Positions 27,305 through 42,675 are shown, counted from the first letter of the stretch. The stretch: 44,819 bases of DNA from Candidatus Peribacteria bacterium (GCA_031276875.1 JAISMG010000023.1:1-44819), one strand, 5' to 3'. Made by a program: numbers and translations. The notes: generated by a model not told the origin, from the letters alone.

Positions 27305-27375
27305 AAGAGGATGGTGCAAAGGTAGCACGCTGGTCTCCGAAGCCAGAAATGGGAGTTCAATTCTCCCTCTTCTTG
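27305..27375 (+). tRNA. tRNA-Arg(CCG)
   Basis: The cloverleaf folds fully in 71 nt: acceptor AAGAGGA/TCTTCTT with one G-U pair, D-stem GTGC/GCAC, anticodon stem CTGGT/GCCAG with loop CTCCGAA (anticodon CCG at 27337-27339), five-nt variable loop, T-stem GGGAG/CTCCC with loop TTCAATT. The discriminator base is G, and CCA is not encoded. It starts 32 nt after comF. Confidence 0.92.
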
Positions 27376-27619
27376 AAGAAAAAAAGTTAATCAAGAACGA
27401 CAAACGAAAGTAGAAGAATTAATGAGAAAACAACAATTGGTAACCTTATCAAAAAAGAAATGAGAAATTTATGAATAACAGTGAGATAGAAGAATATATA
27501 TACACTAGAAAACTTTGAACGAGAAGGAGAAAGACAAAAGGGTACTTACTCTGTTACAAAAAATAATTACCCCTTGTAAAAAAAGGCATATTTGCTTGAA
27601 AAATTAACCAAAAAACAAC
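27376..27619. other. Gene-poor stretch with ORF debris
   Basis: Short frames such as KVNQERQTKVEELMRKQQLVTLSKKKGEIYE and ENFEREGERQKGTYSVTKNNYPL end quickly and follow each other in different frames. They look like remains of a decayed gene; I see nothing functional. Confidence 0.4.
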
Positions 27620-27806
27620 GAAAAAAATCTGACTTTTACATCAGCTTTTTTCAGGATACTGTCCTTCAATAGTATGATATATTACATATTTTCGAAAAGA
27701 AAACAAACTCGTTCGACCGATTAGTACTTCTTTGCTTTCCGCAGAACTGAACTTATACGTGGAACCTATCACATTTCGCAGCAAATACGAGACGGAATCG
27801 TCGCTA
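27620..27806 (-). pseudogene. Deleted and diverged 23S rRNA 3' fragment with its terminator
   Basis: Positions 27620-27725 are almost identical to 39660-39757, which hold the terminator hairpin, processing stem and last bases of the 23S gene. Beyond that the match is diverged: GATAGGTTCCACGTATAAG here against GATAGGCATCACGTGTAAG in the intact gene. The sequence then jumps to TTCATAGCGACGATTCCGT, which in the intact gene lies over 300 nt further inside. It is thus a 23S pseudogene with an internal deletion, not a tandem copy of the present gene. Confidence 0.75.
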
Positions 27807-28064
27807 TGAATGTAAAAGTTGTGAGCAAATTCCCATTCTCACTTTCACCTCAAATATTACAAATACTTTCTTATAATGGGTCAATTTAATCCCAGATCTT
27901 GCAAGCACCATATAAAATACATCTTCAACTGTTGATATATTATTATTTGTATCATTTAGATAAGGTATAAGTGATTCAACAGCAGTAGTCGACAACAAAT
28001 ATCCCGTTCTTTTACTGATTTCTATAAGCAAAATTTTGTTTCATATACAAAATCGCCAAAAACC

Positions 28065-28291: not shown

Positions 28292-29140
28292 GTGGAAACT
28301 CCAATAAAAGATCCCACTATTCACAAAGACCTTGGGAAATTAGCCTTAGAAATCTGGAAAGTGGAAAAAAGATTGCACAAATTAGACCAAAAGCTATCTG
28401 AGGACGATAAAAAAGGATTTTCTTTTCTAATGGAGAGAATTTACTCAGCTTTGGAAAAATATGGAATTCACATTACCGACAACACGGGACAGAAATATAT
28501 TGAGGGGATGAATGGAATTGATGTGGTTTCCGTAGAAGCACAAGAGGGATTAGAGCAAGTGATTTGAGAAGTTATTACTCCGACATTAGAAATAAACGGA
28601 GAAATTACCCAAAGAGCAAAAGCGATTATTAAAGATTTGAAAACTTTTGAGGAAGAAAAGGTAGTGCATAAGCAAGAAGAAAAGGCTGATACAAAGAAAA
28701 AAAAGAAAATCAACTGGAAAAAAATTGTCAGCTATGGTATTGTTGTAATAATTCTCCTCTGAGCTATTCAATATTTCTGCAAAGATAAGTTTCAATCAAA
28801 ACCAACAGAGCAAACTCCTATCAGTATCGCACCTCCTGTTGTAACTCCACCAGAACTTACAGGAGAAATACAAGCACCAGAAATAATTGAACCTACTCCC
28901 ATCGAAGAAAGCAAATATCCTCTGATAGATTTCAAAAGTATTATAGAGCAAAATCAGCTTTTTGAAAACAGACTTGATGAAATGCAAAATTTTACTCCGT
29001 ATGAAGTCTTCAAGACACTTGGGCTTCACCGAAAAACAGATAAAACAAAGTTTGGGATTACTCCGTGAAGTGCAAAAAATAATCTACAAATCAGAGATAT
29101 TCTCATTGAAGAACTTCGTCAACATATAAGTCATTCATAG
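28292..29140 (+). CDS. Membrane-anchored GrpE-like protein, first gene of the chaperone cluster
   Basis: The 282-aa protein starts with a helical region (LALEIWKVEKRLHKLDQKL) and a GrpE-like head: FSFLMERIYSALEKYGIHI-DNTGQKYIEGMNGIDVVSVEAQEGLEQVIGEVITPTLEINGEITQRAKAII, the pattern of the GrpE beta domain that opens the Hsp70 nucleotide cleft. Unlike ordinary GrpE it continues into a Lys-rich stretch, a membrane segment (IVSYGIVVIILLGAI), a Pro-rich linker and an outside domain (YEVFKTLGLHRKTDKTKFGITPGSAKNNLQIRDIL). Start is probably GTG 28292, as no ATG lies in the first 45 codons. Three TGA codons are Gly. It would tether the Hsp70 of this cluster to the membrane. Confidence 0.68.
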
Positions 29141-29165
29141 TTTTTATTTTTTATATCATATACTA

Positions 29166-29420
29166 ATGGTTTTACAAAGAAAAAACACTAACACTCTACA
29201 AGAAAGAAAACAGTTATCAAGTGGTATCACTTATGCTACCATCAATCCAAACTGAAATACGCAAAATAGTCAACAAAAAGCTTCAACTATTAAACAACCT
29301 CAAAAAAGTATCCCCAGTCATTCTCAATTAGATAATGTCTGAATTTTTGGACTCGTATTACTTGGAGGCTTTATAGCTTTTGCAGGATTTGTTGCACTAC
29401 TTGTGAATGTTATTGTTTAG
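29166..29420 (+). CDS. Small single-pass membrane protein, 84 aa
   Basis: A polar, Gln/Ser/Thr-rich N-terminal 55 residues precede a C-terminal membrane segment (IFGLVLLGGFIAFAGFVALLVNVIV), which makes it a tail-anchored protein. Two TGA codons are read as Gly, so standard annotation misses it. It sits 25 nt after the GrpE-like gene and 28 nt before the next gene. Confidence 0.7.
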
Positions 29421-29448
29421 TCAGCTTTTTTATCTCTTACTGTATAGT

Positions 29449-30003
29449 ATGATGAAAACACTTCTCAAATGCTTTGGACTCCTATTCATTCTAGCCATTA
29501 CCACCGCTCTTTGTCAGGGATATTACGAAAGCTGTTTTACAACTTATGGAGCTTTTGCAATGAGTGCGGGTGGGAACACTTGTAGATGTATGAATGGTTA
29601 TCATTTTGAAAATAAATTTGGAAGAACAACCTGTGTAAAAGACCCGACTTGTCAGGATTTATACGGTTGGAATAGCTACGGCATGGGGAATACTTGTTAT
29701 TGTAATAAAGGATACCACTTTGGAACAAGTTTAGGGAAAACGAGTTGTATAAAAGATCCTACTTGCACAGAACTGTATGGGTTTAATGCAAAAGAGAATT
29801 ACGATGGGACTTGCTCATGTAAAAGCTGATATTTTCGGAGAAACAACATCTCAGGAAACCTTTACTGTGAAAATGGTGACACAATTTGTAGAAATCAATT
29901 AGGAACTTTTGTGAGATACAATTCTCTCAGTAATATGTGCGAATGTAATGCAGGATATGTGATTACAAACGGAAAATGTACAAAGAAATCAACTTATCGA
30001 TAG
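29449..30003 (+). CDS. Secreted Cys-rich EGF-like protein, 184 aa
   Basis: A clear signal peptide (MKTLLKCFGLLFILAITTALCQG) is followed by three or four related units: TCRCMNGYHFENKFGRTTCVKDPTC, TCYCNKGYHFGTSLGKTSCIKDPTC, TCSCKS and CECNAGYVITNGKC. The C-x-C-x(2)-GY pattern with conserved Cys resembles EGF-like modules held by disulfides. Such a protein must act outside the cell, although it is encoded inside a chaperone operon. One TGA (29827) is Gly. Confidence 0.75.
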
Positions 30004-30028
30004 TCGTTTATTTCTTATTCATACCATT

Positions 30029-30697
30029 ATGGTCTTAAAAAGGACAGGAGAAGCAACTCCAAAACAAAAAAAGCTACAAAAAAATACTCCACAGACTCTT
30101 CCACCAGAAAGAGAGGAACAACATTTTGAGGAACAAAAAAAATCTATGGAAAAATCTCCTCACAATAAGCCAACATATAGTGTAATTATTGCCATTGTAG
30201 CAGTCGGTTTGGTAGTCGCCTGTTTTATATTTTCGTATCTACAGATAAAAAATCTCAAACAAGAAATTTCCGGTCTTCAAAGAGAAGTTTCCAGTCTTCA
30301 GAGAAAAAATACTTCTTTAGAAGCAACTATCAATTCATTAGATAATAGTGACTTTAGTATTATTGTGGCACAATATGATGGATCTTCATCAACTTCTAAC
30401 AATGTTTCTTGGATTGGTGAAAGATCTTTATGACTGCCAGAAGTTGCAAAAGGAAAACAATGTTATGTATTAGGATCAAGACTTTCTGGTGCAGATGGAG
30501 GAACAGTAAGAGGATTTCTAGGGAAAAATAGTTCCAATGGAATATATTATTTTGCTGAAAACTATCAAGCTGATGTTAACTTTTTTGAACAAAAAATAGA
30601 AATTAGCAAATTTAATGGTTCAGCTAATGTTAATCTTTCAAAAACAGAAAGAAATAATCTCTACTTTTCTATCACTCTTCTCTGTAAACAGATATAG
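30029..30697 (+). CDS. Membrane-anchored coiled-coil protein, 222 aa
   Basis: The N-terminus is charged and cytoplasmic, a membrane segment lies at residues 49-71 (YSVIIAIVAVGLVVACFIFSYL), then a short coiled coil (LKQEISGLQREVSSLQRKNTSLEATINSL) and an outside domain with WIGERSLGLPEVAKGKQCYVLGSRLSG and CKQI at the end. The TGA at 30431 is Gly. It lies 37 nt before the Hsp70 gene. Role unknown. Confidence 0.72.
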
Positions 30698-30734
30698 CTT
30701 TTTTTAACCTTTTTATCTTATCTTTATATCTACA

Positions 30735-33212
30735 ATGGCAAAATCAAACACTATTCAGATCGGAATCGACCTTTGAACGACCAACTCCGCAGTAGTGGTC
30801 AATCACAATGATAAATATGAAATTGTGAAAAACTCTGACCAAATGGACTACACCCCTTCCGTCTTCTGATACAATAAAGGGAAGAACCTCCAAGTGGGCA
30901 AGAAAGCCTATGAAAACCTTTTCCAATTTGCTACTGATGAGGAAGTGAAAAATTACAAAGCAGAAGTCAAAAGACTGATGGGGACGAAAGAAACGATTTA
31001 TTTCGAGAGAGTGGATCAAGAAATGTCGGCTGAAGAAGTGTCAGCAGAAATTCTCAAATATCTCAAAGAAGTAGTTCTCAGAAAATACCCTGACATCAAT
31101 ACGGAAGGAGTAGTGATTACTGTTCCCGCCTATTTCAGCACAACTCAGAAAGAAGCCACCAAAGAAGCAGGAGAATTGGCAGGATTTAGGCATGTAGTGC
31201 TAATACAAGAACCTATTGCGGGAGCAATGGCTTATGGATTTGATAATAAACTCAATGAAAACTGGCTTGTTTATGATTTAGGAGGAGGAACTTTCGATGT
31301 TGCAGTGATTTCTAGTAAAGATGGAGTCTTAACCGTAAAAGGACATAATGGAGATAATTATTTAGGAGGAAAAGATTTTGATAATCTGATTGTAAATAAA
31401 ATTATTATCTCTGCATTACAGAAGCAATACACTTTCGATGAAATTTCTCCTGATAGTAATAAAATCCTCTACAACAAGTTGAAATATTATGCAGAAACAG
31501 CAAAAAAAGAGCTAACCGATAGCAAAGAGACAACTATTGTTATTGATAATATCAAAGATGATGACAAAGAAGAGGTATATTTGGAATTAATTTTCACTAG
31601 AGCAGAATTTGAGAATCTAATTTCCAAAGAGATTACAAAATCTATAAAACTCTGTGAAAAAGCGATTTCAGAAAGTGGACTTACCAATAACGATATTCAC
31701 AAAATTATTCTCATCTGATGACCCACTCAGATTCCTTATATTAGACAAAGATTGCAGTCTGATTTATGAATTTCTGTTGATAGTTCAGTAGATCCTCTGA
31801 CTGTAGTAGGAAAAGGAGCTTGTATTTTTGGATCTTCACAACTCATTCCAAAAGGAGAACAAGCAGAGAAAAAAAGCTGAACTACTGCAAATATTACTTT
31901 GAATTACGAACCTGTCGTGTCGGATACCGATACAATGATTACAGGAACAATAAAAGGTATTGATAATGATGAAGAGTATTATATCCAAATTCAGAGTGAG
32001 GATGGGAAATATTCTAGTAATAAAATCAAACTCAAAAATGGAAAATTCATTGATACAGTGCTGGTCTCTGAGGGGAAGTCGAATGTATACTATATTTACC
32101 TGACCGATAACCAAGGAAATATCATCGAAACTGATACAGATTCTTTCGTTATCACTCACGGGGTCTCTATTGCAGGAACTCCACTTTCCCATAGTATCGG
32201 AGTCGTTTTGAACAAAAAAAGATTTTTGGGGGATGTAGAAGAAGAAACTATTGATAATGTCTTTGAAAGAGGAATGATTGTACCATTGGAAAAGACTCTG
32301 ACCTATCATACTGCCAGAGAACTCAAAAAAGGCGATATCGATAATGCTTTGCCTATTAGAATTTCTGAGTGAGAATCTAAAAAACCTGATAGAAATCAGT
32401 TAATTTGTGAGGTAATATTGAAAGGGCAAGACATTCCTTATTCTTTGCCTGAGGGAACAACCGTAGAATTGACTGTAAAAATTGATGTTTCAGGGACTTG
32501 CTCTTTATCAGCTTATTTTCCTGATATAGATTTCCTGATTGAGAAAGTAGGAAGAACTAAAGGAGATGAAAAGATTGATTCTAAAACATTGAAAGAAGAA
32601 ATTTTAAAAGAGCAGAAAAGGCTGAATGAGATGTGAGACTTACTGCCTAATGAAGATAAAAAGAAGCTGTTTGCTATCATCAATGAATTATCTGAACAAG
32701 CTGACAGTAAAGATGAAGATATAAAAAGAAAGACCAATAGTAAACTCAAATCTTTGAAGACTGAAATGGATACTTATGAAGATAGCACAGAATCGACTAG
32801 GCTCATCGAAGACTATTACAAAGCAATCAAAGATGTAGAGAAAATGAGCCAAGATTTATGAGGATATGATTTAATAAAAGACCAATTAGAAGCCCTGAAA
32901 AAAGAGTGAAAAGAAATAATCCAAGTACAAGATTGGGAGAGATTAGAAGCTATTGTAGATGAAATCCATGCATTAGAGGCTAGAATTATCTTTAATACTC
33001 CCGAAGGACTCAAAGGAATGTTAGGACATTTATATCAAATCAAAAATGAATCAACAGATATTGTCAGAGCAAATCAAATACTGAATAGGGCTTCTCAATA
33101 TGTAGCAACAAATGATATGGAGGGAATGAGACAATGTATTCACGAACTGCTAGAATTGATGCCAAGAAATGTGCAGGCTAACTTAGGAGCTATCGCTGGA
33201 ATATCCAAATAA
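30735..33212 (+). CDS. Hsp70 (DnaK-like) chaperone with unusual C-terminal half, 825 aa
   Basis: The ATPase domain is complete: GIDLGTTNSAVV (Gly of the loop is TGA, 30774-30776), EGVVITVPAYFSTTQ, LIQEPIAGAMAYG, LVYDLGGGTFDVAV, NGDNYLGGKDFDN, and ILIGGPTQIPYIRQRL. It is followed by an insertion, about residues 380-475 (TANITLNYEPVVSDTDTMITGTIKG...YYIYLTDNQGNII), with the look of an Ig-like beta domain, then a DnaK-type substrate domain (SHSIGVVLNKKRF, FERGMIVPLEKTLTYHTA) and a long helical tail ending in a TPR-like region. DnaK has about 610-640 residues. The tail and insertion suggest a specialised client or partner rather than general folding. Confidence 0.93.
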
Positions 33213-33239
33213 TCTTTTACTTCATCTTGTCACACTCCG

Positions 33240-34637
33240 ATGAATTTATCCCACTTACTTATGTCCCGTAATGCTTATTTAATTATGGGACTCAGCTCTG
33301 ATGCTGATGAAAAACTTTTGAACAAAAGACATAAAGAAATGCTGAACTATTTGAAGATTGATGAAATTCCTGAGTATGATGCAGATATTTCATTCATAGA
33401 TTACAAAAAAATTAGGACAGAGGAGATGATCAAAGAGGCTTTTCATACTTTGTCTAATCAGAAAAAGAAACTTTATCAGACTTTTTTCTGGTTTCAGCTG
33501 ATTGATAATAAAGATGAAAAGTGTTTTCGTAAATTCATAAAGGGAGAAGTGAATGAAGCCATCAATGAATGGGATGATCTCTACGAAACTACGAAGAAGT
33601 ATCACTACTTGAAAAATGGGTTGATTGCAGATCTTTTGCTCTTTGAACATCAGAAGCGATTCAAAGAACTCGGAGATTTCAATCAGGATGCTGAACAAAT
33701 TGTAAAGGCTTTGAATGAATTACTCCATTCAGAAAAGTTTCGGGCCGAATTCAAAGAAATTTTTAATCTTCATAATGAAATCCCTCTTCATACAGAAGTA
33801 CTCAATGAGTTCAAAAAAGAATTGCCTCAATACATTGCCGAAGCATTCTTTGATCTTTGTGAAGAATTAAAGAAACCAAAACTCTATAAGGAATATAGTG
33901 AAACTTTTAGATTGAATGCAAAAGAATTAGATGATAATGTAGAAGCAATGTCTTCAATCAAGATGATTGAGCAGAATCTCAAAGAAATTAAATCCAAAGA
34001 TTTATCTGATGACCTTGATGAAATCATTGCAGGGATTAACGATATTTCAGAAGAAGTAAAAAAATTGGATTATTTAGGATTAGAAAACAGTCCAAAGATG
34101 AAAAAATTAAAAGATGATTTTGCGAGTGAAGTAAGAAGTATGGCAATTAAGCTCTATAATGATTTGAATGATTCAGATAATTCCTTGAATTTCATCAATG
34201 AAGCAATAGCAATCGCCTATTCAGAAAACATAAAATCGAGATGTAAAGAGGATAAAAAGACGTTGGAAGAGAATATAACATGACTTATCCAGCAAGAACA
34301 TCAAACAAGAGTAGCATTAGATTGACCAATCCCCCTCCAAGACCTCAATATTTCTATTATTCAACTAAAAAAACTTGTTGCACAATGAGGAAAATTTAAG
34401 CAGTATAAGTACTGTATCTCTGTAATTCTTATGACTTTTAAAAGGTGAACTGATATTTATTTTATTCCACCTTGAAAATCAGGTTTTTCAGTAGCAATAC
34501 TACCAACTTTATGAACACTTTTACTTGGTTGGCGAGGGTTCCCACGATGACCAATTTATTCGTTGGAGTGTATCTTTTCTAATTTGTTTGGAGGGAAAGA
34601 TCTCACAACTGGAGTTATGTCCCATTTGTGAGCATAA
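33240..34637 (+). CDS. J-domain-like membrane protein without HPD, 465 aa
   Basis: The N-terminus has J-domain form: NAYLIMGLSSDADEKLLNKRHKEML, then a longer helix II-III link and IKEAFHTLSNQKKKLYQTFFWFQL, but the HPD tripeptide that triggers Hsp70 is missing. A helical middle part follows (about 290 residues). At the C-terminus are a short membrane region (SGFSVAILPTLGTLLLGW) and a motif FPRGPIYSLECIFSNLFGGKDLTTGVM that also ends other J-like membrane proteins. At least eight TGA codons are Gly, so the last 118 residues vanish under the standard code. It is a paralogue of the protein at 36650 and follows the Hsp70 by 27 nt, which marks it as its likely co-chaperone. Confidence 0.8.
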
Positions 34638-34666
34638 TATTTTTTACCATTTTACATTATTGCCTT

Positions 34667-35236
34667 ATGACTCTCGTAAAAGCTACTCCTAAAAGACAAT
34701 CACAAGGAACTTCATCAAGTTCTTATAATAACACCCCACAATATCAATCCCCAGAAAATCCATCTGACTCTTCTCGATGGTGTGGAAAACGATTCTTAGT
34801 GATTATAGGAGTAATTATTGTCATCAGTATTATTAGTAGTGTTATTGATAATAATTCAAGTTCCTCTTATAGAAATTCCTCATATACTTCATCTTACAAT
34901 ACCACAACAAATTCATGAGTCCCAGATGGATATTGTAAGGGGTCGGATTGAAATATTTATGCTAAACCTTTGCATTCTTACTGTGATGGAGGAAAGACTC
35001 CACAATGACGAGTTTGCAATGCTGGTTATACGGCTAAAAGCGAGAATAATGAAACTTGGATTCAAAGTTCTTGGTATTGTCAGTGCAATAAAAGTGTAGT
35101 AAGCTGTTCACAATATATCAGTTGTATAGAACCAAACGACTTATATGTTAATCAATATAGTCAATCTTCTGTGGATGTTTACAATAGAAAAGTAGAGGCA
35201 TACAATAGATGTCTGAGCGAAAAGTGTTCTTGTTAA
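34667..35236 (+). CDS. Cys-rich membrane-anchored protein, 189 aa
   Basis: A Ser/Gln/Pro-rich N-terminus, a membrane segment (RFLVIIGVIIVISIISSVI) and an outside part with spaced Cys (GYCKGSDGNIYAKPLHSYCDGG, RVCNAGYTAKSENNETW, WYCQCNKSVVSCSQYISC, CLSEKCSC). The Cys pattern recalls the secreted protein at 29449 (C-NAGY motif). Three TGA codons are Gly. Start is ATG 34667, after a T-rich leader. Confidence 0.72.
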
Positions 35237-35275
35237 ATCAGTTTTATCTTTCTTTTATATTTATACCTTATTATC

Positions 35276-35863
35276 ATGAAAAAATTCTACATCTTCTTGT
35301 GAATTGTGGCAATCATTGTAGCCCGAGTGCTTATAGCCGAATACAATGATGAAAAAAGTCTCTTAAAAGACTACACTACAAAAGTCAATGCTGAGAGCGA
35401 AAACAGAGCCAATATTTTATCTAAATACCAAGAAAGAGATACAAACTTAGCCCGCATTATTACCTTAGAAAAAGAAATAAATAACATCGCAGATAAGATG
35501 GCACAAACCGACTGTGCCAATCAAGATACTTGTCGTCAAGTAGACTTATGGAATTCTTTATATGATAAGCTGGATAATGCACGAGATGAAAAAGAGTCTC
35601 TAATGTCCAAATCAAAAACAGCTATATCTAAGCAGAATAAAATAAATAAACCAGATGAGCTTTGGTTATTGGATATGTTGGGATTTAATAACTCGGAAGA
35701 ATTAAGTAATAAACTTGCTTCTTATTCTGTACAGATAAACGATAAATTTATCTCAATAAACAGCAAAATCGATCAGATAGAGGCACTTGAAAAAGACTGC
35801 AATCATCCACCTGTTATAACTTGTACCTCATTCACTGAAATAGACCTTGAAAAAGAATGATAA
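35276..35863 (+). CDS. Membrane-anchored coiled-coil protein, 195 aa
   Basis: A short N-terminal anchor (KKFYIFLGIVAIIVARVLIA, with Gly from TGA) precedes a helical outside domain with coiled-coil stretches (LARIITLEKEINNIADKMAQ, LWNSLYDKLDNARDEKESL) and two Cys pairs (DCANQDTC, DCNHPPVITC). The gene ends GAA TGA TAA, so the product finishes with Glu-Gly. Function unknown. Confidence 0.7.
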
Positions 35864-35891
35864 AAATTTTTATATTATTAGCTTTTATATT

Positions 35892-36587
35892 ATGCTGAAA
35901 AGAGCCACCACATTACAACCTCATTCATCATCAAAATCTCGTCATGCTGAGGAGGGAAAAAAGACAGGATCGTCAAAGATTTCAACAAAATCAGGAGAAA
36001 ATACCACTTCTCCGACATCGTTAGACTTAAAAAAATGGAAACCAGTAATTATCACTGGAAAACGAGCTATTTATGGTTTATGGTGATATATTGTATTTTG
36101 TAGTATGAGTTTTTTATTTGCGTTTCTTTGAATTATAGATGTTGATAATACGGATGCATTGACGACATTAGATGTTCTCGATAGATTATGTTGGCTGACG
36201 GTATTGATTTTAGTTATTAGACGAGCATATAAAGCATATAAGAATTTACAACTTTCATGAGTAGAATGATTGCATTTCCAAAAAACTGGCTGGTTAATTC
36301 GATGATGGCTGATTATTATTGCAAATCGATATATGCCATACCAAATTGTTAGAGATCTCTTCAAAAAATATTACCAAGATGAAAAACATATTCCACGAAC
36401 TTTACTGTGATGGTGGTGGGGATTATGGGTTGTTTCTCACTTACTCATAACTTATCGACCAGAGGATGACGAGTCATGATTTATTTTCCTAATCGTTATA
36501 GGATTTATAGTTTCTTGTTTTCTCCTGATACAAATTATTAAAAAATTAAATACAGTTCAACAAGAAATTTTAGAAGAAAAGGTATAA
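35892..36587 (+). CDS. DUF4328-like polytopic membrane protein, 231 aa
   Basis: After a cytoplasmic Ser/Lys-rich tail of about 55 residues come four membrane segments. The sequence IIIANRYMPYQIVRDLFKKYYQ followed by LLGWWWGLWVVSHLL fits the DUF4328 family, whose function is not known. Eight TGA codons are read as Gly, including one in RGWLIIIAN. The frame ends in TAA at 36585, yet the next 35 bases read on as coiled coil (GIKEETTQLREQLEE, then TAG at 36626) in the +1 frame, so one base may have been lost from the AAAA tract at 36576-36582. Confidence 0.7.
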
Positions 36588-36649
36588 AAGAAGAAACCAC
36601 ACAACTTCGTGAACAGTTAGAAGAATAGATTTATTATCACCAACATCTT

Positions 36650-38362
36650 ATGTTTATCTCAAACAATGCCTACACTATTTTAGGACTGTCAACAAATACA
36701 GACGAAAAGGCTCTCAATAAGAGATATAAAGAGTTGCTACATTTTTTACAAATCTGAGAAGTTCCTGTTTACGATACTGATATTTCGTTTATAAACTATA
36801 AAAATAAGAGAACAATAGAACAGGTAAAAGAGGCATTTCATCACCTTTCAAACCAAAAGAAAAAAATGTATCAAACTTTTTTCTGGTTCCAACTAACAGA
36901 TACTACCGACAAAGACATTTTCAACACATATAAAGACCATCTAGAACAATACAAGACCCCCCTATTGACTGAACGAATACTTACTTTCAGAAACACTAAT
37001 GATTTTCATTGTCTCAAAAATCATCTTATAGGTTGTATCTTACTTTTTGAATACCAAGAACAATTTGGTTGAAAAAAATATTTTTTAGAAGATACCGCTT
37101 TAATAGCCGAGGAACGAGAAATACTACTTTCTAGCGAAAAATTCCGAAATCAATTTCAAGAAATTTTCAATCAACAAAATAATATTCCCATAGATCACAA
37201 ACATTTACAAGAATTTAGAAATGAATTGCCCCAATACCTAGCAAACCAAATTTTCGATATAGCAATAAAGCTGAATAGGTCTGATTTATACTCTGCTTTT
37301 ATTGATCGTTTTCACATCTCTGCCACTACTATTGAGGAAAATGAAATCATTAAACATATGATACAATACATTGAACATACAGTATCCGAAATCAAAGAAA
37401 CAAACACACAAAAAGATATAGAAACTATTATCCTTAAATCTAATCAGATTGAAGCAGAAGTAAAAAAATTTGATAGTTTATGACTATACAATCATGCAAA
37501 AATCAAAAATCTTAAAGATGATGTAGCAAATACTATCAGAAACATTTCCGTAGCCATCACTAATAAGTATAGTGAATATGAACATGCTCTCACCTTACTG
37601 GAAATCGCTATGAGAATAGCCTATTCTAAAAGTCTATCCATCAATATGGAGGAAGACCATAAAACCCTAGAAACTCTTCTTTTCTTATCTTGAAAAAAAA
37701 CCGACAAAAGTCTGGCTAAGAAAAAATGTCCTTTTTGTAGAGAAGAAATCTCCGAAAATCAAAAAAGGTGTCCATTTTGTGGAAGAATTTTAGCTGAAAA
37801 GGTTGTAATCAAAAAAATAGAACAACAAACAGAAAAATCCCCTATACCTAAAAAAGAACCTATCCCAGAAAAATCAAAGAAACCGAAGTGTCCTTTTTGT
37901 AAAGCAGAGATTGAGAAAAATACGGAATTCTGCCCTACCTGTGGAAGACAAATTATAGAAAATTTTTCTACTCCTAAAACACATAAATTATCTCAACAAG
38001 AAATTCTTAGAAAACACATTACACATATTAAATCATTATTGAGAACTGGACAGAGAAATTTAGCCATTCAAATAATGGACACTATTATGGAAGATTATAT
38101 TTTGAACGATAATGAGTGAAATTTATTAAACGAACTACTCACAGACCAAGAGCGAAGTTTACTGTTAGATACCGACAATCCTACAGATAAAAAATGTTCT
38201 CCATCGTGTAAAAAGACAGAAACTTCTACCTCTTCATATCAAGCTCCACAACATTCAACTTCAAAAGTTGACGATACAGAAGAGCTTTCTTTAAAAACAA
38301 AAATAATTCTGATAGTAATTTGATTAGTTGTCTTATTCGTTGCGATTTCGCTCTTTTCATAG
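36650..38362 (+). CDS. J-like protein with two zinc ribbons and tail anchor, 570 aa
   Basis: The first half is paralogous to the protein at 33240: NNAYTILGLSTNTDEKALNKRYKELL, VKEAFHHLSNQKKKMYQTFFWFQL, again without HPD. Then come two zinc ribbons, CPFC...RCPFCGR and CPFC...FCPTCGR, separated by a Lys/Pro linker, a helical segment and a C-terminal membrane anchor (KIILIVIGLVVLFVAISLFS). It may recruit clients or nucleic acid through the ribbons while holding the Hsp70 at the membrane, which is inference. Five or so TGA codons are Gly. Confidence 0.78.
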
Positions 38363-38387
38363 TCTTTTATTTTTAAATTTTATCGCT

Positions 38388-39524
38388 ATGCTACAAAAAC
38401 CACTCCTCCCCATCGGCTACTCCACCCAAGGAGAAAACATCAAATCCCGTGTCAGCAGAGTCCTCAACACGGAAATTTATAAACTCGTAAACGGTGGATA
38501 TCTCTATGTCATCACCGACACTCAACTTTCCGATGTCCCCAAAGACAAAATCAAAAAACATTCTCTCTTCGGAGTTAGAGTTGGATTAAATGAATATGTC
38601 AGCTTTTTCTCTCCTGAGGTTGAATTAGAAAACCTTTCAAAAATTAAAAAAAGTCTGACCAGCAGAATAGGATTTGAAGCTATCGCAGGAATGCACGACT
38701 TGAAAGAACTTTTTATGAAAGAAGTCATTGAACCGATAAAAAATCCTGAAAAATACAAAAAATACAAACTCTCAATCCCCAATGGAGTCCTCTTTTTCTG
38801 ACCTCCTGGATGTGGAAAAACATTTATTAGTAGAAAATTAGCAGAAGAAATCTGATATAATTTTTATGAAATCAAACATTCCGACTTAGCAAGTCCCTAT
38901 ATTCACGGTTCTACCTGAAAAATCGGAGAAGTATTTGCTATTGCAAAGGAAAACAAACCGAGTATTGTCTTCTTTGATGAACTTTCATGACTTGTCCCCA
39001 AAAGAGAAAACCTTGATAACGCCCATTACAAGGAAGAGGAAGTAAATGAGTTTCTCATCCAATTGAATGATGCCAGTAAACACCAGATTCTTGTTATCGG
39101 AGCTACAAACTTTCCGGATAGAATTGATACTGCTGTGATGAGAGCCGGAAGATTAGATAAAAGAATTTATATCTGACCTCCTGATTTTGAAGCTAGAAAG
39201 GAACTCTTTGAAATGTATCTTAGAGAAAGACCTCTTGAAGGCATTGATTTTGAAAAACTTACAGAACTAACAAACGGAACTACCACTGTTGGAAGTCCTA
39301 CCATTGGATTTTCTACAGGAGAAAGTAGTAGAAAATTTACGAAATCATATGTTGCCTCTGATATTCAGGTAATGTGCGATAATTTTGCTAGAAAAGCTTT
39401 GTCAAAAAGTAGTCCTATCACTATGGAAATTTGTGAAGCGGCGATTAAAGATTTTACTCCGTCTATTGCAGGAGAAGATTTGGAGTATTACAAATCGTTT
39501 ATTGAAGGATATCAGAGAGTATAA
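38388..39524 (+). CDS. AAA+ ATPase, last gene of the chaperone cluster, 378 aa
   Basis: An N-terminal domain of about 90 residues precedes a classical AAA module: Walker A GPPGCGKT at 138-145, whose first Gly is TGA (38799-38801), Walker B SIVFFDELSG, sensor GATNFPDRID, and MRAGRLDKR with the Arg finger. It ends with the small helical lid (YVASDIQVMCDNFARKAL). The type is closest to Cdc48/FtsH/proteasomal unfoldases. It has no protease domain and no membrane segment. As final gene of the Hsp70/J/GrpE cluster it would supply unfolding force, like ClpB for DnaK, but it belongs to a different AAA branch. Confidence 0.9.
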
Positions 39525-39654
39525 TATAAACCCGCTCTGAATGGGCATAATAACACAGTATAGGGCATCGCCCTATAAAACCCCGCAAAGCGAGTAATGT
39601 ATGTGAATGATTTTTGTTTTACCCTTACATGGTAACGGTCTCTATTTCACAAAC

Positions 39655-39690
39655 AACAAAAAAAATCTGACTTTTACATCAGCTTTTTTC
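39655..39690 (-). terminator. Terminator of the 23S rRNA gene
   Basis: AAAAAAGCTGA and TCAG followed by eight T, read on the minus strand, form a hairpin about 50 nt after the 23S end. The same hairpin occurs at 27620-27651 beside the 23S pseudogene. Confidence 0.7.
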
Positions 39691-39710
39691 AATACTGTCC
39701 TTCAATAGCA

Positions 39711-39736
39711 TAATATATTACATATTTTCGAAAAGA

Positions 39737-39745
<9 letters not shown>
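39711..39745 (-). other. 3' strand of the 23S processing stem
   Basis: aatatattacatattttcgaaaagaaaacaaact is the near-perfect complement of 42641-42675 across the 23S gene. The roughly 33-bp helix would loop out the 23S rRNA for cutting by RNase III. Confidence 0.8.
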
Positions 39746-42640
<2,895 letters not shown>

Positions 42641-42646
<6 letters not shown>

Positions 42647-42675
42647 GTTTTCTTTCGAAAATACTGTAATATATA
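42641..42675 (-). other. 5' strand of the 23S processing stem
   Basis: This pairs with 39711-39745 (see there). Upstream of it on the minus strand I see a possible -10 (TATATT) but no good -35, and a hairpin CAACGTTGGA/AACGTTG near 42702-42728. The stretch up to 42956 has no other feature. Confidence 0.75.

Follow-up and report, generated by a model that had tools for sequence, protein, structure and literature searches.

The closest published kin of the gene cluster described here are predicted conflict loci centred on a GAP1-N2 GTPase (described by Kaur et al. in 2020, PMC7159879), in which an HSP70, a GrpE and a DnaJ- or TPR-bearing protein share one neighbourhood, as they do here. The cluster comprises eleven + strand genes at positions 28292-39524 of a 44,819-nucleotide (nt) stretch of DNA from Candidatus Peribacteria bacterium (GCA_031276875.1 JAISMG010000023.1:1-44819; the whole stretch is hereafter the window), and encodes an Hsp70, a GrpE-like protein, J-like proteins and an AAA+ ATPase; five of its genes form a conserved core, hereafter the module. 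Membrane features and a predicted conflict role are also common to the GAP1-N2 loci and the module. The HSP70/GrpE theme of those loci was placed in actinobacteria and firmicutes (PMC7159879). By comparison, the module has a core AAA+ and a small transmembrane (TM) protein instead, and no GAP1-N2/TRAFAC GTPase or FNIII was found among the Pfam matches of the ten core and added cluster proteins scanned. Another Hsp70 homologue in a predicted defence system, CnuD of type III CoCoNuT, acts alongside McrB/McrC and RNases, and its ATP motifs are degenerate (PMC11090510), whereas the ATPase motifs of the module Hsp70 are intact and no McrBC is present. The DnaK-DnaJ-GrpE system with ClpB resembles the module in setting an Hsp70, a J protein, an exchange factor and an unfolding AAA+ ring in series, but the module is membrane tethered, has a single-ring AAA+ of the Cdc48/Vps4 type, and lacks the HPD motif, R167 and the canonical linker. 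The mitochondrial import motor (mtHsp70, Mge1, Pam18 and the HPD-less Pam16) likewise combines a membrane-tethered Hsp70 with a GrpE-type factor and a J-like protein without HPD; unlike the module, it also possesses an HPD-bearing J protein, retains the canonical Hsp70 contact and has no AAA+ partner. No description of the five-gene module was found in the literature searched, many subscription papers being outside its reach. The module is a variant of known chaperone machines with unusual coupling, for which a conflict role is plausible but unproven.

The conserved core runs in the order GrpE-like protein, Hsp70 of about 830 amino acids (aa), J-like protein, small TM protein and AAA+ wherever the contig is long enough. 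In the window its members are as follows.

28292-29140, + strand: GrpE-like nucleotide exchange factor with a C-terminal TM anchor at residues 145-163.
30735-33212, + strand: second Hsp70, 825 aa, with an intact ATPase domain and altered substrate-binding and helical C-terminal regions.
33240-34637, + strand: J-like protein 1, with J-like N-terminal helices lacking HPD, followed by a helical repeat region.
34667-35236, + strand: small TM protein, aligned with relatives, with an extracytoplasmic tail carrying an SVDxYNxKVxxYN motif.
38388-39524, + strand: single-ring AAA+ ATPase (Cdc48/Vps4 class) that lacks a protease domain and whose pore loop is aromatic (PYIHGS).

The initial annotation had treated all eleven genes as one cluster. 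Conservation of the eleven as a unit was not supported, as relatives' modules, the same-genus module included, lack the second J-like gene and the other five small proteins; conservation of gene order is confined to the five-gene core, and among the small proteins only the TM protein co-occurs with the Hsp70 in relatives. For the remaining small proteins this is the outcome that the initial annotation had named as a refutation. Profile searches did not detect the small TM protein in L018, in L022 or in the module of the same genus, and a longer TM protein opening with the same kind of motif is present in L019. A GrpE-like protein was not recognised upstream of the Hsp70 in L016. In the same-genus genome (L047, 7312-13688) the genes for the GrpE-like protein, Hsp70, AAA+ and J-like protein are present with AAA+ ahead of the J-like gene, directly upstream of ftsA- and ftsZ-like genes and at a site that differs from that of the window.

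The housekeeping dnaK, dnaJ (with HPD) and grpE of the 1.23 Mb, 68% complete source genome lie outside the cluster, on contigs C28, C26 and C30 respectively. The cluster Hsp70 is therefore a second one, and the possibility that it is the only dnaK of the genome was ruled out by the copy on C28. Together with the AAA+ partner conserved beside the Hsp70, this upholds the proposal of a second Hsp70 system, and the module very probably constitutes a dedicated Hsp70/AAA+ remodelling machine.

The second Hsp70 matches the Pfam Hsp70 family (PF00012) with an E value of 1e-84 and is approximately 30% identical to the DnaK of its own genome. Across 24 aligned sequences from modules and distant kin, the equivalents of the catalytic residues K70, E171, D194, T199 and D201 are kept in every one. 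In DnaK, contact with DnaJ is made by pairing of D35 of the HPD motif with R167 and of H33 with L391 of the linker (PMC13012618). At the R167 position the aligned Hsp70s carry V, A, E, F, T, S, I or L and arginine in none of the 24, and the position of the interdomain linker is occupied by a beta-rich insert of about 110 aa in place of the conserved hydrophobic linker of the VLLLDV type. Arginine is retained at R167 in the housekeeping DnaKs of all six carrier genomes with a readable motif, and a canonical Hsp70 accompanies the module Hsp70 in nearly all carriers. In the Gracilibacteria genome of L023 (G407) the module Hsp70 was the sole one found; a housekeeping dnaK may sit on missing contigs.

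The loss on the Hsp70 side is matched in the partner, where HPD is present in 0 of 14 aligned J-like proteins. Predicted helices at residues 12-16, 24-39, 61-72 and 74-82 of the J-like model follow a J-domain-like pattern, with the helical repeat region after them, and a profile of the family reaches true DnaJ N-termini weakly (E 1e-5 to 8e-4; hhalign probability 74). Because the HPD motif is lost from the J-like proteins, and R167 and the linker from an Hsp70 whose ATPase is intact, the sequences suggest a pair that still works via a contact different from that of HPD, R167 and linker.

The remaining partners retain clearer relationships. An AlphaFold2 (AF2) model of the GrpE-like protein, built from an alignment of 16 relatives, was of high confidence over residues 11-120, and its 12 top Foldseek matches in the PDB were all GrpE chains (E 0.0015 to 0.5), so that the predicted structure has the GrpE fold, in which a beta domain comes after long helices at the N-terminus. 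The protein did not match the Pfam GrpE model at an E value of 1, and the NCBIfam GrpE model was reached by two of the 16 relatives (E 0.01-0.04). Its homologues stand ahead of the Hsp70 in relatives' modules. The AAA+ matches PF00004 (E 9e-33) and part of Vps4_C, with CDC48 as its best NCBIfam model, and Walker A and B, the second-region arginines and an aromatic pore loop of the PYIHGS type are conserved across the aligned AAA+ proteins. Rings of the Cdc48/Vps4 class thread or extract their substrates, and by analogy with this class the module AAA+ may do the same.

The membrane linkage proposed in the initial annotation was borne out, as partners of the second Hsp70 carry membrane anchors. 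Within the window a strong hydrophobic segment is present in the GrpE-like protein, the small TM protein and J-like protein 2, and likewise in many relatives. Most modules contain at least one TM-bearing component, although which component is anchored varies; the GrpE-like anchor is C-terminal in this genus and N-terminal in most relatives. Both J-like proteins had been described as membrane proteins, which is supported for J-like protein 2, with its clear C-terminal TM segment, but not for J-like protein 1, in which hydropathy gave no strong one.

Carriers identified by contig scanning include several Patescibacteria and records titled Methylocystaceae, FCPU426, Obscuribacterium, thaumarchaeal metagenome-assembled genome (MAG) and rumen bacterium; these names are record titles, and a single MAG contig may have been placed in the wrong bin, a caution that applies most to the archaeal record. 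Presence is sparse throughout, at 3 of 380 sampled Patescibacteria (J-like profile search), 3 of 199 genomes of another phylum and two of the eight genomes of the same genus. In the Hsp70 tree, Patescibacteria are intermixed with other phyla and the module Hsp70s are not grouped with DnaK; the Harrisonbacteria and Methylocystaceae proteins are 59% identical, and the two proteins of this genus 48%. Given the patchy presence, distant carriers and kin on plasmids, the distribution matches what is expected of a mobile accessory module. A tblastn search of plasmids and phages with the J-like protein gave no matches. Divergent forms were seen in Opitutaceae and Kiritimatiellota (L026-L029), where a GrpE-like protein and an Hsp70 are accompanied by long J-like proteins and by a giant AAA protein (1225-1513 aa). 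Plasmid C of Sinorhizobium americanum (L072, 8768-11284) carries a distant Hsp70 relative followed by a 1181-aa open reading frame (ORF), in a region for which the record lists no genes, and in the thaumarchaeal MAG an extra Hsp70-like gene (L022, 4698-6740) lies just upstream of the module.

The cluster itself is a genuine gene run, as had been proposed. Most of its eleven + strand frames are open along their entire length only when TGA is read as glycine (code 25), and this reading is sound because the TGA codons at Hsp70 residues 14, 328 and 329 coincide with glycines invariant across all relatives. The gaps between genes measure 25-62 nt, computed after correction of three starts to 29449, 34667 and 35892. 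A promoter scan returned 43 promoter-like sites, with 49.7 expected in shuffles, and was therefore uninformative about the lack of an internal promoter that had been proposed. The tiny source bacterium is probably a parasite. Interleaved with the core are six further genes.

29166-29420, + strand: 84-aa protein with one TM segment; local addition, with no homologue in relatives' modules.
29449-30003, + strand: cysteine-rich secreted or surface protein with 18 Cys and weak EB/EGF-like repeats; local addition.
30029-30697, + strand: 222-aa TM and coiled-coil protein, DivIC-like (PF04977, E 4e-7; TM at residues 51-69); local addition.
35276-35863, + strand: 195-aa protein with an N-terminal TM segment and coiled coil; local addition, not in relatives.
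35892-36587, + strand: protein of 231 aa containing three hydrophobic segments; local addition.
36650-38362, + strand: J-like protein 2, a duplicate of J-like protein 1, with a J-like N-terminus lacking HPD, two zinc ribbons and a C-terminal TM anchor.

The two J-like proteins share 37-43% identity. For the cysteine-rich protein, the EB module match (E 2e-4) falls under the curated cut-off and comparison with relatives gave scattered weak matches only.

The cluster is bracketed by a 159-nt direct repeat derived from the 3' end and trailer of 23S rRNA, whose copies lie 12.04 kb apart.

27613-27772: left direct repeat, in which the 23S rRNA 3' end and trailer are present in decayed form, with 135 of 159 positions identical to 39651-39807.
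39651-39807: right direct repeat, belonging to the intact 23S rRNA gene (minus strand, 39736-42649), of which it comprises the 3' end with the trailer.

Insertion with target duplication and recombination between rRNA copies would both explain this arrangement. No integrase lies within the bracketed unit. The 23S 3' end was located in four relatives of the genus, with neither ComF nor tRNA-Arg adjoining it; since synteny fails there, no empty site was demonstrable. A tRNA-Arg gene (anticodon CCG, 27305-27375) lies just upstream of the left repeat, and a 23S scrap at 27792-27810 is identical to 40146-40164. Serine recombinases or integrases were present near the modules of L009, L011, L012, L013 and L019. 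Under a preset rule that took the three longest flanking ORFs in each of eight carriers, integrases or recombinases made up 5 of 24; with dnaK of the same genomes as control, none appeared among the families listed, which were housekeeping ones and excluded 21 weaker families.

Genes associated with defence are also found beside modules. A type III restriction-modification pair adjoins the module in L008, a DUF3644/PDC-S19 gene immediately follows the AAA+ in L012, a Fic gene lies beside the module in L019, a HerA/mad8-like ATPase is encoded downstream in L022 and AAA_14/PDC-S01 genes flank the module in L023. Methyltransferase and ShosT-like matches were also obtained among the flanks. Distant Hsp70 relatives with a GrpE-like neighbour lie on plasmids, adjoining BREX genes in Haliscomenobacter and near Zorya genes in Polaromonas. 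These examples were partly picked by eye. PADLOC gave no system-level match for the core proteins; the AAA+ alone matched, its similarity to IetA ATPase models being due to the AAA domain that they have in common. IetAS was ruled out, as this domain was the sole match and no IetS-type partner was seen.

From these observations an order of events can be proposed. The J-like and TM proteins would keep the machine on the inner side of the membrane and offer it a client. The Hsp70 would grip this client in an ATPase cycle that its dedicated GrpE-like protein resets, the Hsp70 being coupled to its J-like partner by a contact other than that of HPD, R167 and linker. The Cdc48/Vps4-type ring would then thread, unfold or extract the client, with disassembly or hand-over as the predicted outcome because the ring lacks a protease. 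The purpose may be to sense or dismantle, at the membrane, proteins that belong to phages or to mobile elements of other kinds. As a whole, the module is best read as a horizontally mobile, membrane-tethered Hsp70/AAA+ protein-remodelling machine, a reading that has an even chance of being correct, with conflict its likeliest purpose. In its most specific form, the proposal is a chaperone-based system of immunity or conflict: a Hsp70 tethered to the membrane and its non-HPD J partner would capture proteins of an incoming mobile element for unfolding by the Cdc48/Vps4-type ring, via an undescribed J-Hsp70 coupling. This form is tentative and less likely than not.

Several results weigh against a chaperone system with this purpose. 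The core contains no nuclease or toxin effector, and a search of viral contigs and phages with the Hsp70 C-terminal region found no relatives. Under the preset rule, PADLOC matches were only slightly commoner near modules than near dnaK, where the matches were to housekeeping proteins, and the neighbourhood is weak evidence in any case because the islands on which defence genes cluster also hold much unrelated cargo. That the J-like domain is a true J-domain is suggested by its helix pattern and by profile scores that are weak, and is not proven, so that only the label 'J-like' is used here; Foldseek with the whole J-like model returned no J-domain in the best 50, the helical-repeat matches obtained being uninformative. 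With the examples partly chosen by eye and the difference from the dnaK control small, a defence or conflict purpose is placed a little short of an even chance.

The anchors on the GrpE-like, J-like and TM proteins, the pore loop of a Cdc48/Vps4-class AAA+ without protease and the lack of a toxic effector in the core would also suit quality control of membrane or envelope proteins, in which the Hsp70 and AAA+, as an island-borne set for fitness under stress, would pull misassembled proteins out of the membrane or refold them. Extraction of the eukaryotic Cdc48 or Msp1 type follows a comparable logic. The very patchy presence, even within a genus, and the island context are unusual for such a function, which is possible but doubtful.

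Export or surface assembly during life on a host cell was among the tasks suggested by the initial annotation; in this reading the machine would be dedicated to that task, with the small secreted and cysteine-rich proteins as its clients. In the window, genes for signal-peptide, cysteine-rich and TM proteins do alternate with those of the core along a single gene run, but such small proteins are missing from every other module, same genus included, and the core occurs in genomes not labelled as those of episymbionts. A role in life on a host cell also fits poorly with a core found in Methylocystaceae, Obscuribacterium, the thaumarchaeal MAG and the rumen bacterium, with distant kin on plasmids, and absent from nearly all other sampled Patescibacteria. 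This explanation is therefore improbable, and defence or conflict is more likely than life on a host. A paralogous stress operon, duplicated within the lineage from dnaK, dnaJ and grpE, would account for the same three co-chaperone roles but was rejected as very improbable on the Hsp70 alignment and tree, given an Hsp70 so divergent from its own DnaK and lacking R167 and the linker, relatives that cluster across phyla rather than with DnaK, and canonical partners intact elsewhere in the genome.

To our knowledge, HPD-R167-linker coupling is regarded as the universal switch of Hsp70 machines. An Hsp70 family that has kept its ATPase site without the arginine and linker, with a partner lacking HPD, offers a natural experiment on what Hsp70 allostery cannot do without. 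A fixed link between this Hsp70 and the Cdc48/Vps4-type ring, if the proteins form the predicted complex, would be a bacterial Hsp70-Cdc48-like pairing outside ClpB. The presence of modules in culturable groups and on plasmids makes the system testable. If the defence role is true, heat-shock parts would have been built into a form of immunity that acts by unfolding proteins at the membrane.

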